Virus record (IMG/VR): IMGVR_UViG_3300029309_000116
Span: 1-24,854 of that record
Direction: 5' to 3' (one strand)
From: a virus
Length of the DNA stretch: 24,854 nt
Below the pieces are notes generated by a model that worked only from the letters and a program-made list of their open reading frames with translations, was not told the DNA's origin and did not search any database. The translations under genes and the position numbers were made by a program. This document shows, piece by piece, positions 1-23,108 of this stretch (its first letter is position 1; each line of letters begins with the position of its first letter).

Positions 1-1707
1 GGATACATCCTTGTTAGCATCTGCTGTTACAACTTTGCTTGCAACTACTGTGCCTACAGAAGCACCTGTATCGCTGTAGTTGAGTTCTGCTGCTGTAGCA
101 GTAACACCATCAAGAATATTAAGTTCCGATGCCGTAGAAGTGACACCATCAAGAATGTTCAGTTCTGCAGCGGTTGATGTTACGTTAGTCCCACCAATGT
201 CGAGTGTTGTCATTGACACTTCACCAGCCACAGTTAGGACGCCGTTTGCTACCGTCATCAAGTCGGTATCATCTGTGTGACCAATGGTACTACCATTGAT
301 AACAACATCATCAATGTCTAGTGACCCACCAGTGATTAAGCCCGTAGTTGTGATTGTCGAAGAACCAGTGTCAATATTACCAAAACCGCTAGTAATAGAA
401 CCAGAGTTTAATGCGCCTACAGTGGTGATGTTAGAAGTTGTGTCAAGTGCGCTTTCAAAGAATGTCTCAAAGTCAGACAGTGCAACCTGCTTCATCGTAC
501 CGTTGTCGTTTACAATAACACGATCAGCAGCAGCAAGTGTAGTTGAGGTAGCAGACGTATCACCGTCAATAATATTAATTTCTGTTGCTGTGGCAGTTAC
601 ACCGTCGAGGATGTTTAACTCTGCTGCTGTTGAAGTAACATTGGTTCCACCAATATCCAGCGTTGTCATAGAGACTTCGCCAGCTACAGTAACTACACCA
701 TCAGCAACAGTAATCAAGTCAGTGTCGTCAGTGTGGCCGATTGTTGACCCATTAATTACAACATCATCAATATCAAGTGAGCCACCAGTAATGAGGCCAG
801 TAGTTGTAATAGTTGACGAGCCTGTGTCAATGTTACCAAAGCCAGACGTAATAGAACCAGAGTTTAGTGCGCCTACAGTAGTGGCAGCAGTAGTAACGAG
901 ATTAGGCATTGCCGTAATTTCGTCATCAAAGTAGGCGGCAAGGTCAGTGACCGCCACCTGTTTCATGGTTCCGGCATCGTTGAATACAACACGGTCTGCG
1001 TCTGCCACTGTGGTAGAAGATGCAGATGTGTCACCATCCATAATGTTTAGTTCTGTTGCCGTCGCTGTAACACCATCCAAAATGTTCAGTTCAGCAGCAG
1101 TCGATGTCACATTAGTGCCACCAATGTCCAGCGTAGTAACGCTTATCTCACCAGCGACAGTTGCAATACCATCTGCTAGTGTTATCAAATCTGTATCGTC
1201 TGTGTGTCCAATGGTTGCGCCATTTATATTGACATTATCAATAACAGCTTGTGTAATAGCACTGTTAGTACCAAGTGTAACACCATCAATAGAACCACCG
1301 TCAATGTTAGCAGTATCTGCTACAAGTGCATCCGTAGTTACTGTGCCGTCAAAGAAAGCGTTTTTAAACTCAAGTGAACTTGTGCCTAAATCAATGTCGT
1401 TATCTGTGACAGGAACAATAACACCATCTTGGAAACGTATCTGTTCTACGGATGAACCTGCGCCACCTGCATCAAGGAACAAACCTACACGATTGTTTGT
1501 GTCGTCCACTACAACTTTGTTCAGTGGCGTGGCTACTCCGGGGTCGCCAATTAGTCCAATAACCGGACCTTCAGCGGCTGTGCCATCATGCTTGTGTCCA
1601 GACGTGTTTACAAATGCTGCCAGTATCTGATTAAATTCATTGTTACTGTCGGCAGCATTAATAACGTCGCCGTCTGTATAGGATGACTGTCTAGTATAAC
1701 CTGCCAT
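1..1707 (-). CDS. Tail fibre / tail appendage protein, repeat-rich (partial, C-terminus beyond left edge)
   Basis: An open minus-strand frame of 569 codons runs from the ATG at 1707 to the window edge with no stop. The ATG overlaps the stop of the upstream nozzle gene as TAATG. Residues 1-166 form an N-terminal region with SGHKHDGTAAEGPVIG and a DNDIDLGTSSLEFKNAFFDG segment, both of a kind common in marine phage fibres and probably the part that joins the virion. After that the protein is built from long tandem repeats of 157 and 152 residues plus a third incomplete copy. Each carries LDIGGTNVTSTAAELNILDG and TTTGLITGGSLDIDDVVING. Ser/Thr/Gly/Asp-rich beta repeats like these are typical of trimeric fibres. 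It is the last visible gene of the tail cluster. Family-level recognition is good. Receptor specificity and the C-terminal domain cannot be seen. Confidence 0.85.
   Translation of the reverse strand, partial: MAGYTRQSSYTDGDVINAADSNNEFNQILAAFVNTSGHKHDGTAAEGPVIGLIGDPGVATPLNKVVVDDTNNRVGLFLDAGGAGSSVEQIRFQDGVIVPVTDNDIDLGTSSLEFKNAFFDGTVTTDALVADTANIDGGSIDGVTLGTNSAITQAVIDNVNINGATIGHTDDTDLITLADGIATVAGEISVTTLDIGGTNVTSTAAELNILDGVTATATELNIMDGDTSASSTTVADADRVVFNDAGTMKQVAVTDLAAYFDDEITAMPNLVTTAATTVGALNSGSITSGFGNIDTGSSTITTTGLITGGSLDIDDVVINGSTIGHTDDTDLITVADGVVTVAGEVSMTTLDIGGTNVTSTAAELNILDGVTATATEINIIDGDTSATSTTLAAADRVIVNDNGTMKQVALSDFETFFESALDTTSNITTVGALNSGSITSGFGNIDTGSSTITTTGLITGGSLDIDDVVINGSTIGHTDDTDLMTVANGVLTVAGEVSMTTLDIGGTNVTSTAAELNILDGVTSTASELNILDGVTATAAELNYSDTGASVGTVVASKVVTADANKDVS
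283..738 (-). repeat. Second long tandem repeat unit of the tail fibre gene (152 codons)
   Basis: This unit begins at the GHTDDTDL motif (738) and ends at INGSTI (283). It is clearly homologous along its length to the unit at 739-1209 and to the incomplete unit at 1-282. The central part (residues 67-103 or so of the unit) is the most divergent and is five codons shorter than in the first unit. Confidence 0.85.
739..1209 (-). repeat. First long tandem repeat unit of the tail fibre gene (157 codons)
   Basis: This unit starts with GHTDDTDLITLADGIATVAG and ends INGSTI. It shares near-identical blocks with the next unit (LDIGGTNVTSTAAELNILDG, GALNSGSITSGFGNIDTGSS, TTTGLITGG). It carries a five-residue insertion around EITAMPNLVTTAAT relative to the second unit. 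Confidence 0.85.
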
Positions 1708-10303: not shown

Positions 10304-12365
10304 TTCCACTAAATCCTTGTTCACCCGGCACTGGTACTTGTCCCGTACCCATTGTTCCACCACCTGCACCAGTTGGGTCCATTACATCCGCACCTGCTGG
10401 CGCACCTTGGCCTTCAGGTAGTGGGGCTTGGAACCCTTTCATAATCTCTGCTTGCAGTGCAGCTTCATTCATATCGTTTACAACCTTATCGGGGTCAAGG
10501 TCCATAGACTTTGCAATCTCTGTAATTATATATTGGAATTTAGCAAACGGCGCAAGTGCAGGATTACTTGCAATCTGCAAGAACTGCATAAGACGCTGAC
10601 TGCGTATTTCATTTGCCATCAGGCTTTCAGTGCCACGTGCTTTTACTTCTAGGTCGCCTTTTAGTTCTGGGTCAAAATCAAACTGCATGTTAAATCTAAA
10701 CAAACCTTCGCCAAGAGGACGAAGCAAATAGTCGTCTACGTTTTTGATAACACTCTTGATAGAGCCTTGCGCTGCACCCATAAGCATAGAGATACCTGAT
10801 GCTGTACGTCCTACGCCAGACACACCTGTCTGCCCGTGTGCAAAGGATGGAAAGCCTGTACTCTCATCTGCTAACACCCGTGCTTTGTCAAACATCATCA
10901 TGTTTTCTTGAGATACGTTTGGATACTTTGTACCGAAGATTGCCTGACCAGGTGCGCCACCTTGTCTACGGAATACTTTGCCCGGATATAACGTGAGGTC
11001 TTGTCCCGGCACTAAATTAGTTTCGTCTACCTCAACCAGCAAGTTACCAGACAGCACAGCATTGTCAACCGCCATGCGCATAAAGCCATTCATCAATGTC
11101 TGCGTATCGTCCATATTTTCTGCAATACCGACACCAAAGAATGAATAAGGATTGAGTTCGTAAGGTGCGGCCATGTAAGGAATTTTAGATGGCTTGAATG
11201 GATTGAGTACAAGACGAATTAGTTTGCCGTTACAAATCCATGCGTTAGCTTGTAATTCATCAAAGTCTTTTAACTCATCAGGAATATCTACCTCTTGCTC
11301 AATAAGCATAGATACATCTATCATACCCCAATACTCAAGAACCTCAAAACGATCAATGCCATGCTCTGGTGCATAGTCAGACAGATCATCTTCCCAATAC
11401 TTCTTGGTATAGTTTTCACCAAACGAGATGGCTTCATCAATTACAGAAGACCTAAAGTAAGGACGGCGTTTTAATGAACGCAATTGTGTGCGAGACATCT
11501 TGTGTCGTTCAATTACAAACTGTGCCTCATCCATGTTATTAGCATCAGGATCAGGATAAAAATTCCAAACAGAAACATGTGATATCTGTGGAACTGTTTT
11601 AAATACAGGATCATACTCACCATCGTCATTCCAATTAGGATATTCTTTGTCAACAGCAAATGGACCTTTCATTACTCCGGTTCCAAATAGAGACATTTCA
11701 AATGAAGTGCTACGCAAATACTTAGTTGCACTCGACTCTTCTAGTTGATCATGTATCTTTTTCTGCATTTTCTTAGCCGCAATCATTGCTGGGCTAAATG
11801 TTATAGCAGTTGGAGTTGTGCCTGATCCTTCTTGTAGTTTCTCTTGTACAGGGTCTAACTTCTCTTGAAGTGGACCTAGCTTGTCCATAAGAGTTTTTTC
11901 TGTTGATCCGGCAGGTAAACCTAATCCATCACCAGCAAAGCCATACGGATTTTGCAGATCATCAATACCTACACTATCTTCGGGTGCTTGCGGATCAAAG
12001 TGTACACTATCTACTACACCTTCAGGAAGTGTCGTAGGTTCGATAGAAAGCGGAAAACGATTGTTGGCAAAGAGTACATCGGTAATTTGTCCATATGCTG
12101 CCAGTGTTTTTGTTTTGGTGATTTTAATAAATACACGAGACTTCTCCGTTTCCGTAAACTGCACATCTGGCGAATACAAACCACGGTAGTTGCGATATGC
12201 TCTAAGCCAGCGTTCTTCGTCTTGATATCTATAGTCTTCTGCTTTATAGTATCTACCCTCAATAAAGCCAATGATTGAAGACACGTTAGCATCTTCAGTT
12301 GCACTATCATCTGTATCATCTAGTGCAATTGAATCATCTTCCATTAAAATTTCTTCTTCAGCCAT
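10230..12365 (-). CDS. Portal protein
   Basis: The protein has 711 residues, a size typical of large podovirus portals. The start at 12365 is preferred over one at 12395: AAAGGAAG lies 4-6 bases upstream and the ATG overlaps the preceding stop as TAATG. The N-terminal third has the usual portal region (EERWLRAYRNYRGLY, SRVFIKITKTKTLAAYGQI). The middle contains WNFYPDPDANNMDEAQFVIE and the stem/crown helices (GVGRTASGISMLMGAAQGSI). The last 70 residues are Gly/Pro/Gln-rich and probably disordered. Portals form the dodecameric ring through which TerL pumps DNA. Its position directly after TerL and before scaffold supports the call. Confidence 0.85.
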   Translation of the reverse strand: MAEEEILMEDDSIALDDTDDSATEDANVSSIIGFIEGRYYKAEDYRYQDEERWLRAYRNYRGLYSPDVQFTETEKSRVFIKITKTKTLAAYGQITDVLFANNRFPLSIEPTTLPEGVVDSVHFDPQAPEDSVGIDDLQNPYGFAGDGLGLPAGSTEKTLMDKLGPLQEKLDPVQEKLQEGSGTTPTAITFSPAMIAAKKMQKKIHDQLEESSATKYLRSTSFEMSLFGTGVMKGPFAVDKEYPNWNDDGEYDPVFKTVPQISHVSVWNFYPDPDANNMDEAQFVIERHKMSRTQLRSLKRRPYFRSSVIDEAISFGENYTKKYWEDDLSDYAPEHGIDRFEVLEYWGMIDVSMLIEQEVDIPDELKDFDELQANAWICNGKLIRLVLNPFKPSKIPYMAAPYELNPYSFFGVGIAENMDDTQTLMNGFMRMAVDNAVLSGNLLVEVDETNLVPGQDLTLYPGKVFRRQGGAPGQAIFGTKYPNVSQENMMMFDKARVLADESTGFPSFAHGQTGVSGVGRTASGISMLMGAAQGSIKSVIKNVDDYLLRPLGEGLFRFNMQFDFDPELKGDLEVKARGTESLMANEIRSQRLMQFLQIASNPALAPFAKFQYIITEIAKSMDLDPDKVVNDMNEAALQAEIMKGFQAPLPEGQGAPAGADVMDPTGAGGGTMGTGQVPVPGEQGFSGNGGQGTVQQTEAVGGQQPPMESLQ

Positions 12366-17028: not shown

Positions 17029-18108
17029 TTATGCTGCTTTCTTTATCGGGTTGTCAGCCTCTACTCCCATCCACTTGCTCCACTCAGCGTAGTAGTGTCG
17101 CATTCCTACTTCATCGTGAATGGTTCCATTCTCATGTCTACCATGCAGGATATTACGTGGCTCAGTTCCTTCTCTCATTGTTGTGCCTTGTCCAGCCACA
17201 CCTATTAAGTCTTCGTGTAAGTTACGTCCAAACGGACCCCATATAGAGTTGTGATGCTCAATACGGGTATTACGTTCTTCTGTTGTATCATTCTTTAAGC
17301 CGTATCCTCTAAACTCAATCAATACTTTGTTTGGTCCAAGTGGTGTTACACTGTCACTACGATATGCGCTACCTCGCAGATTAAAGTTGTAGCCAGGAAA
17401 CAAGTCTACCATGTACCACTGATTTGGTGGCAAGTTGGGAAAAGATAACTCGCCTCTGTCTTCAAATCCCTGATACTCTTCATAGTTAACAGTAAAGCTG
17501 CTGACATTAACATGACCATTATCAAAAGGCACGTTCTTTCTGGCAAAGTATTCATCGTTAAATCCAGATACACGATTGAAGTAGTGCATGAAGTCGTGGT
17601 AGAACTCACTGTTAGTGTCGTGCCACAGTTTGTAGTTTGTGTCTATAATAGCTTTGTGGTAGTGAAATACTTCTAGTTCTTCTGTATCAATAGCATCAGC
17701 AATGCAATCAAACGCCCCACAAGTCCACTCCTCCACACTCATGTCTGGGTTTTTATTTAGCGTAACCCAAACCATACCACCGTGTTTTACTTCGCAGTGC
17801 AGTTCACCCCAGTCACGTGCGTGGTAGCACAGAGATATATCATTACCTGCAGGTGACATAACACCTTTGTTTAGAAATGACCTGTAGCCATTGTCAAACT
17901 TTATGGTGATTATATTTTGCCCAGCTATCTGTGCAGTCCTGTAACTTCCTATATGTTGTATTTCACTTTTGTGAAATGCGGGAACCCATACCTTTGAAAA
18001 TATGTTTTCTAGTTCTTCTTCAAACAAACTCTGGTCAGAGTATATAAGAGAGTTTACATACTCTACATTAGGTTCTTTAGTCCAGTTCATATGATTGCGT
18101 GGTGGCAT
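17029..18108 (-). CDS. Rieske-type ring-hydroxylating oxygenase alpha-subunit homologue with degenerate Rieske site
   Basis: The protein has 359 residues, near the usual length for oxygenase alpha subunits (about 350-450). Residues 38-118 follow the Rieske-domain path (KVWVPAFHKSEI, YRSFLNKG, GGMVWVTLNKNP). The first C-x-H pair is replaced by GVMS (82-85), and of the second only C94-Y-H96 remains. The catalytic domain keeps the mononuclear iron site: NYKLWHDTNSEFYHDFMHYF has Glu168, His171 and His175, and HEDLIGVAGQG has Asp300. His-His spacing is three residues, not the usual four. Known family members need electrons from the Rieske cluster, so this protein may use another donor or do something else. 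It lies in the late operon, coupled by TAATG upstream. The substrate is unknown. Catalytic-fold recognition is confident; activity is not. Confidence 0.8.
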   Translation of the reverse strand: MPPRNHMNWTKEPNVEYVNSLIYSDQSLFEEELENIFSKVWVPAFHKSEIQHIGSYRTAQIAGQNIITIKFDNGYRSFLNKGVMSPAGNDISLCYHARDWGELHCEVKHGGMVWVTLNKNPDMSVEEWTCGAFDCIADAIDTEELEVFHYHKAIIDTNYKLWHDTNSEFYHDFMHYFNRVSGFNDEYFARKNVPFDNGHVNVSSFTVNYEEYQGFEDRGELSFPNLPPNQWYMVDLFPGYNFNLRGSAYRSDSVTPLGPNKVLIEFRGYGLKNDTTEERNTRIEHHNSIWGPFGRNLHEDLIGVAGQGTTMREGTEPRNILHGRHENGTIHDEVGMRHYYAEWSKWMGVEADNPIKKAA

Positions 18109-21317: not shown

Positions 21318-21363
21318 TGTCAACTACTTTTTTGAAAATACAAGATTTAGTCCATATGGGGGG

Positions 21364-22090: not shown

Positions 22091-22194
22091 AGAGACTAAA
22101 ACAGAATACGCCTAACGAATACAAGAGACTTGACTAACCGAATAAAGCAGATTAGGATTTAGAGACTGAAAGAAAACGAAAGGACCAAGAGACC
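22091..22194 (+). repeat. Four AGAGAC repeats at about 30-base spacing
   Basis: AGAGAC occurs at 22091, 22124, 22161 and 22188. The first two copies share a longer ACAAGAGACT preceded by CTAAC. Spacings are 33, 37 and 27 bases. The surroundings are purine-rich, so some chance recurrence is possible. Confidence 0.4.
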
Positions 22195-22233
22195 GGACAT
22201 TCAAAACAAGCTAGGTTTTCATCACCAGCAATA

Positions 22234-22508
22234 GGCCCGAACACACTCAAAAGGTGTAGCCAACAAACGATGACGGATGGACACATGACATCTCCGTGGG
22301 TGGTACAGACCACAATGCACTAGCAGTGCGCCTACATACCTGACCTACCCTAACGCTTATTCCGATTGCAGGGTCAAACCAAGGCGAGAGTATTGGGTAG
22401 GTCGGAGAGTGCCAGGACAGGGGTGGAGTGTAACTATCGGCAGCGGTAGTGTATGCCATGCACAAAGCCCCTATTCTTTAATCAATAACTAAACCAAGGG
22501 GTGACACA
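22234..22508 (+). promoter_or_regulatory. Self-complementary leader before the rightward genes, possible RNA switch
   Basis: Several inverted repeats nest here: GTGGT/ACCAC (22300-22313), GCACT/AGTGC (22317-22329), and a long stem CTGACCTACCC/GGGTAGGTCGG (22340-22350 with 22395-22405) enclosing a smaller stem near 22354-22358/22382-22386. CCCCT at 22468-22472 can pair with the ribosome-binding AGGGG at 22497-22501. It can pair equally well with an upstream AGGGG at 22419-22423. That gives two exclusive folds, one hiding and one freeing the start of the 22509 gene. No known RNA class is recognised. Confidence 0.4.
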
Positions 22509-23108
22509 ATGAGTGTTGAAAATATTCTTGCCACATATAAGATGGCAACACCGGAAGAAAAGCGTGATGGTATTGTGTGGTACGCAGACGCATTGCGAGA
22601 CTGTACACGCATTGCGCTTGATACATGCGTTCCATTGCACATTGTTGTTGGTGTGGTGGCAAGCCTATCACCTAATAACAAGTGGGAACGCAACATTATA
22701 AATGCAAAAAATTTAATCCATGCCCATGTAAATGGGGATGGCATGGATAGCATCAAGGTATCCACATACCACAAGATGAAACAAAAAGCGTGGTCAATAC
22801 TAGAGGCAATGCCTGACCACGATGGCGTCATTGACATACTCAATGGGCAAAAGATTGTTTCATTCTATCGCAACATTGTGGGTGATGATACGTGTACCAT
22901 TGATGGACACGCACGTAATATCGCATATGCTGAACGTGTAGGATTGACAGACGATAAGACCAATATCGGTGTCAAAGAATATAGGACACTACAGGCAGAG
23001 TATGTTCAGGCCGCGAAACGTACAAGAGTTAATGGTCGAGCATTAAAAGCATTTGAATTACAAGCCATCACATGGGTGACATGGCGTAGAATACACAACA
23101 TCAAGTGA
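22509..23108 (+). CDS. First rightward gene, unassigned phage protein (DUF7178-like pattern)
   Basis: The protein has 199 residues. AGGGG lies eight bases before the ATG. Motifs seen are VVASLSPNNKWERNIINAKN (48-67), then ILNGQKIVSFYRNIVGDD, TCTIDGHARNIAYAE and a C-terminal ELQAITWVTWRR. The chain of SP..KWE.N, NG.K..SFY.NI and T.DGHA reminds me of a phage family listed as DUF7178, and loosely of helix-hairpin-helix DNA glycosylase folds. Both comparisons are from memory and uncertain. A DNA-acting enzyme of the early region is therefore possible. The gene sits behind the structured leader. Confidence 0.7.
   Translation: MSVENILATYKMATPEEKRDGIVWYADALRDCTRIALDTCVPLHIVVGVVASLSPNNKWERNIINAKNLIHAHVNGDGMDSIKVSTYHKMKQKAWSILEAMPDHDGVIDILNGQKIVSFYRNIVGDDTCTIDGHARNIAYAERVGLTDDKTNIGVKEYRTLQAEYVQAAKRTRVNGRALKAFELQAITWVTWRRIHNIK

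Follow-up and report, generated by a model that had tools for sequence, protein, structure and literature searches.

Background

Elements that affect the stability or processing of early phage messages are exemplified by T7 early mRNA with its RNase III sites and by the lambda N leader. For an RNA that lies behind a phage early promoter and acts alone on host polymerase, the nearest precedent is the put RNA of phage HK022, a cis-acting antitermination RNA (PMC9378689). HMO-2011-type phages have been described as a dominant group with a wide distribution in the ocean (PMC9038755), but the isolates carry no annotation in their early leader regions. A word search of PMC9038755 and PMC6918029 returned no mention of a noncoding RNA, a promoter or a phage intergenic element in such phages.

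Here, we analysed a window of 24,854 nucleotides of viral DNA (IMG/VR record IMGVR_UViG_3300029309_000116), which forms part of a 37.7-kb virus record. An earlier reading of these letters, referred to below as the original prediction, had proposed that a translational RNA switch lies immediately before the first rightward gene.

Genomic context and predicted transcript start

The nearest relative of the terminase was that of Puniceispirillum phage HMO-2011 (89% identity), followed by those of roseophages of the same type. Leftward structural genes reach position 21323 and rightward early genes begin at 22509, with a gap of ~1.2 kb and no convincing gene inside it between these divergent operons. 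Unannotated gaps of 0.9-1.5 kb are present at the equivalent position in phages CRP-1, -2, -9, -13, -207, -345 and -603. These isolates and HMO-2011 (loci L375-L381 and L370/L371) carry other sequences there, whose long hairpins stand close to the first early gene or immediately before it; these are possibly further types of such a leader. Elsewhere in the window, a homolog of ring-hydroxylating oxygenases (Ring_hydroxyl_A; 17029-18108, minus strand) was seen among the structural-side genes, and an ORF with long internal repeats (TSTAAELNILDGVTAT.., GALNSGSITSGFGNIDTGSSTITTTG..) at 1-1707 (minus strand) probably encodes a fibre-like protein. To the right of the window, near the record end (G000:C1, 35997-37679), there are three stretches of 270-554 nt free of plus-strand ORFs.

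A sigma-70-like promoter upstream of the early genes (Table 1) was the sole plus-strand match to the promoter pattern from 21300 to the first early gene, other matches in the 37.7-kb record falling inside operons. Each of ten homologous leaders, designated type 1, likewise begins at TTGAC[T/G]-17/18-TANNNT with a conserved spacer. The conserved promoter thus places the predicted transcript start (~22165) upstream of position 22423, as the original prediction had presupposed. Since no other matching promoter was found between the RNA and the genes, we infer that the RNA is the 5' leader of the early operon.

Table 1 Coordinates of leader features and of the first early gene in the window
Feature	Position	Strand	Details
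Sigma-70-like promoter, TTGACT-17-TAGGAT	22130..22158	+	-35, spacer (..CGAATA..) and TANNNT kept in relatives
Structured leader RNA (predicted)	22159..22474	+	Predicted start ~22165; 15/50 pairs changed on both sides
Hairpin H1 (GCT-A-GGT...ACC-AGC)	22210..22229	+	Two-sided U-A to G-C change (2 sequences); 85% of cells paired
Hairpin H2 (GGC/GCC, inner ACAC/GUGU)	22234..22261	+	C-G/G-C exchange; 93-100% paired
Hairpin H3 (CGGA/UCCG)	22273..22297	+	3 pairs changed on both sides
Hairpin H4 (GUGGU/ACCAC)	22300..22313	+	98% of cells paired; only one-sided changes
Hairpin H5 (GCACU/AGUGC), then GCCUA	22317..22329	+	92% paired; similar hairpin duplicated in L090
Stem B, 11 bp	22340..22405	+	Arms 22340-22350 and 22395-22405; 100% of cells paired in 10 sequences; 5/11 pairs double-sided
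GUGCCA, conserved unpaired run before end hairpin	22409..22414	+	Related runs precede the end hairpin in most other leader types
Element A (3' hairpin)	22419..22474	+	P1 22419-22424/22467-22472; P2 22428-22432/22459-22463; P3 22433-22439/22444-22450
Conserved bulge of element A, GUAUGCCA	22451-22458	+	
AAA of element A	22464-22466	+	
CCCCT, P1 3' strand	22468..22472	+	Alternative pairing to ribosome-binding site possible
A/U-rich linker, element A to ribosome-binding site	22475..22495	+	
Ribosome-binding site of first early gene, AAGGGGTGA	22496..22504	+	Before ATG at 22509
First early gene, DUF7178 (PF23802)	22509..23108	+	ATG at 22509; different genes after the same RNA cassette in relatives

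Conserved fold of the leader RNA

All of the sequences named in the original prediction are present: AGGGGTG occurs at 22419 and 22497 and nowhere else on the plus strand of the window, CCCCT lies between the two copies, and an 11-bp stem (stem B, CTGACCTACCC/GGGTAGGTCGG) precedes them. The stem said to be nested in it is predicted, if weakly, and the two accompanying hairpins (H4 and H5) exist but are located just upstream of the start claimed for the switch. A repeated 7-mer turned up in 60% of shuffled 172-nt sequences, so the repeat alone is no evidence and support must come from relatives. The same applies to folding energy, which had been suggested as a check: minimum-free-energy z-scores were -2.2 for a 191-nt piece and -1.7 for the whole leader, while coding controls of the same phage reached -3.7. 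As these controls score as well or better, z-scores fail to separate the leader from coding sequence and were not used as evidence.

Relatives were gathered through homologs of the first gene, of the adjacent leftward-running gene and of another first gene, together with pattern scans. The RNA is ~300 bases long here and ~150-400 nt across the family, and the ten type-1 leaders could be aligned over its whole length. RNAalifold predicted 59 pairs in this alignment, and in 15 of these both partners had changed. When 50 named pairs were scored, 96% of cells were paired and 15 of the 50 pairs had changed on both sides, compared with 8.1 +- 1.7 double-sided pairs in shuffled alignments (0/500 reaching 15) and 0-2 when the pairing partner was slid by 1-3 columns as a control. 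Two of the sequences, L090 and L106, were poorly aligned at H1. A double hairpin (GGUGGU..ACC-AUAAUGCA..UGCGCC) was observed twice in the L090 leader (L090:596-948), once in place of the H1 loop. Homologous leaders therefore do contain the compensatory changes that the original prediction called for, and there is very little doubt, as far as comparison of sequences can tell, that the structured RNA of the leader is real and conserved.

No known RNA class had been recognised in the original prediction, and a search of the window against Rfam 15 agreed, with nothing at or above the gathering threshold. Among 20 related or isolate loci, only a tRNA in L105 reached that threshold, and nothing credible was returned at E<=10. 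A match to GP20-b RNA (RF03003) in L058 only (18.2 bits against a gathering score of 36.2, E 0.06-0.15) was treated as chance: several model pairs are broken in L058, and the window itself gave no match. A group I intron and a tRNA-like fold were weighed by visual inspection and rejected, and blastn of the leader against phages and plasmids found no relative.

A nearly invariant hairpin at the 3' end

The leader closes with a hairpin, element A, which was present in 22 IMG/VR contigs; a covariance model of this element (22419-22474) was used to find the more distant copies. Across 14 sequences, all P1 and P2 cells (100%) were paired and seven of 11 pairs were double-sided (0/500 shuffles), in an alignment which was fitted to the model and thus leans towards structure. 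An earlier alignment, not fitted to the model, had four pairs and 14 cells double-sided (score 0/500). The bases between the helices (UGGA, GUAUGCCA and AAAG) were nearly invariant in a set of nine sequences. In L043 and L015, where each of the three helices of element A has changed, AUGCCA is still present.

Other subclades have a related closing hairpin where the window's subclade has element A. The element itself was not found in HMO-2011 or in CRP-1/2/9/13/207/345/603, which carry other sequences at that place. A broad pattern (GGGGTRGA-N-GTATGCCA) matched at least 119 stretches in viral contigs and at least 116 in genome contigs; those outside the phage family were rejected after a P2 filter, since among the matches listed only that family kept P2 together with a matching P1. 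A scan with the ribosome-binding-site pattern added a single locus to the family, L471.

Exchange of RNA domains and downstream genes

Comparison of individual loci revealed a mosaic. L093 and the window are identical at 440 of 450 positions from the first P1 base through the gene, and at 12 of 40 in the preceding 40 nt. L082 matches the window at 84% identity as far as 22138 and becomes related again (79%) from 22419. The window RNA and L471 (the same as L421) have only their two ends in common (5', ~19 nt; 3', 57 nt). In the sister group of L053, L058, L059 and L075, identity is complete over the final 49-63 nt of the RNA and the upstream parts differ, and several other central domains occur among the relatives. 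One exchanged module (GGCUAUAGA-stem-CAAA) was seen by eye, with no statistics attached, to contain at least four different complementary stems (ACUAUG/CAUAGU, GCUAUG/CAUAGC, ACCC/GGGU and GUAG/CUAC). It is uncommon for entire RNA domains to be exchanged precisely at the ends of helices, and this pattern suggests that the RNA itself is under selection.

In most contigs the RNA is found directly before the first early gene, and the identity of that gene varies (DUF7178, MSYNLIGV.., MVKCEMC.., MKTK..). Three loci depart from a simple arrangement. An insert with a tRNA-Trp (CCA; 10507-10580) separates element A from the DUF7178 gene in L105, a second promoter is located between element A and the next gene in L015, and L096 has an insert holding a short ORF with its own ribosome-binding site, AAGGGGTG. 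This ORF (17 codons, MKKSTPLTLVGLYQSMSGD) lies just before the gene, and a possible H-type pseudoknot (AAGGGGUGC/GCACCCC) was noted ~100-190 nt after element A of the same locus; L105 shows an AGGGGUG...GCACCCCACUU arrangement similar to the L096 insert. Just upstream of the DUF7178 gene in L006, L009, L015 and L054, a promoter-like site is overlapped by an inverted repeat (e.g. GGGTGTAATG...CATTATACCC) resembling a repressor operator.

Alternative explanations

The second promoter in L015 and the tRNA-Trp in L105 indicate that the RNA is not strictly coupled to the gene behind it, which leaves room for a stand-alone non-coding RNA acting in trans, for example by host-protein binding or in counter-defence. 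Element A would then be a 3'-end hairpin and weak terminator, and the early genes would be expressed by read-through or from their own promoters. P1 is G+C-rich and is followed by a U-rich tail (UAUUCUUU, stronger in L026 with GCCCCUGUUUUCU), and the differing central domains of otherwise similar phages suggest diversifying selection, both of which fit an RNA of this kind. However, most members have a poor U tract, which raised no flag in a terminator scan, the window and most relatives have only a 20-70-nt linker between the hairpin and the first ribosome-binding site, and no second promoter was seen in them. Judged on these sequence features, we consider a trans-acting RNA the less probable interpretation, albeit one to be taken seriously.

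The translational switch of the original prediction would place the 3' strand of P1 (CCCCU) either on the upstream AGGGG, leaving the ribosome-binding site free (on), or on the site itself (off), and binding of something to the element A loops, which are nearly invariant, would stabilise P1. In the window, the mutually exclusive pairings are indeed possible and of similar stability: partition-function calculations paired CCCC with the site at 58% and with the upstream copy at 42% in a 120-nt context, and at 21% and 79%, respectively, in the full leader. What did not hold up is the conservation of pairing to the site, the probability of which was below 2% in most homologs. Exceptions were L093 (0.10-0.17) and L095 (0.17, short context), and in the full leader only, L106 (0.88) and L471 (0.86). 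The site carries mutations in L082 and L108, where GGGG is missing (AAAAGGTGA). In L105 the tRNA insert decouples the gene, which has the ordinary site GAGGTGAC. The window's own site, AAGGGGTGA, is close to this ordinary site, which is used elsewhere in the phage (e.g. at 23107).

Complementarity of the 3' strand to the site extends over 6 nt in the window and in L093, and over 8 nt in L471 despite the change of P1 to AAGGGA/UCCCUU there. Against this, L043, L015, L026 and L054 keep P1 by compensatory change and have a 3' strand without significant complementarity to the site, as does the L053-L077 group (L053 being borderline). Across the leaders compared, conservation thus concerns P1 and not its pairing with the site. 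Nearly all leaders with the gene immediately behind element A have GGGGUGAC as the site; it reads GAGGUGAC in L105, where the gene stands further off, and in several homologs without element A beside the gene. This association of a GGGG site with element A, together with the 8-nt match in L471, would still accommodate a cassette-specific switch, but the GGGGUGAC site travels with the cassette and its conservation may therefore reflect plain descent. Any such switch would be confined to the subclade of the window's cassette rather than constitute a general mechanism, and on the whole we regard it as unlikely.

A leader serving early-mRNA stability or processing, with element A as a 5'-protective hairpin or nuclease site in analogy to other phages, would explain why a hairpin stands at a short fixed distance before the first gene, whichever gene that is, and why HMO-2011, CRP-1 and CRP-345 have a long perfect hairpin at the equivalent place. 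A mere protective stem would not, however, need nearly invariant UGGA/GUAUGCCA/AAAG loops, and this role seems improbable. Finally, the position in a ~1-kb gap between divergent operons would suit a replication origin, a protein operator or another DNA element, but G-U pairs in the conserved helices (P2 U-G, P1 U-G and stem B U-G), a promoter pointing into the region and RNA pairing rules holding in 96-100% of cells make this highly implausible.

Proposed role of the leader

Comparison of relatives established a promoter, a covarying fold, a fixed 3' hairpin, an exchanged centre and a position before the first early gene. The region encodes one of a family of structured RNAs, new to description, in HMO-2011-type marine phages; for the full reading, in which such an RNA acts in cis on early expression, we estimate a probability of roughly 0.5. 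Most likely, the leader is transcribed and affects early gene expression in cis. The RNA would fold as it emerges; element A, with its nearly invariant internal loops, could provide a fixed platform recognised by a protein of host or phage, by the ribosome or by RNA polymerase. The swapped central domains could represent a variable input or specificity part.

As to how a cis-acting leader might work, we tentatively favour action on the transcribing host polymerase or on the handling of early mRNA, in the manner of HK022 put RNA, over the P1/ribosome-binding-site switch. It is also conceivable, if speculative, that a mosaic RNA family, widespread in a dominant group of marine phages and built from a constant promoter and 3' hairpin with exchangeable, unrelated central folds, serves as an RNA-only tool of host takeover, by host-polymerase control or counter-defence, and that an arms race drives the swapping. 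How such phages control host transcription or translation could be approached in a concrete, testable way through a covarying modular RNA located where the early operon begins.

Comparison with known systems

By sequence comparison, the leader is a new, modular, structured early-operon RNA, of a kind that is known (phage leader or structured noncoding RNA) and with a mosaic build that is unusual. It shares with GOLLD, ROOL and OLE, large multi-helix RNAs some of which occur in phages (PMC12286853), a fold of many helices, but is smaller, has no Rfam match and differs in its leader position and mosaic architecture. The closing helix P1, the conserved internal-loop bases and a 3' strand that could compete for the ribosome-binding site are reminiscent of translational riboswitches; unlike in those, the competition is not kept in relatives, the upstream domains of the leader are freely interchanged and it is followed by different genes. 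As in the lambda N leader with its nut sites, a structured leader follows an early promoter and precedes the first early gene, whereas no N protein or boxA/boxB pair was identified at this locus. The nearest precedent is put. Both are folded RNAs downstream of an early promoter, a position given here by sequence, and the leader would likewise act in cis; both phages would rely on host RNA polymerase and need no adjacent encoded protein partner. In contrast to put, which is ~70 nt long and binds the beta' zinc-binding domain with two stem-loops, the leader described here spans ~300 nt and folds into many helices.
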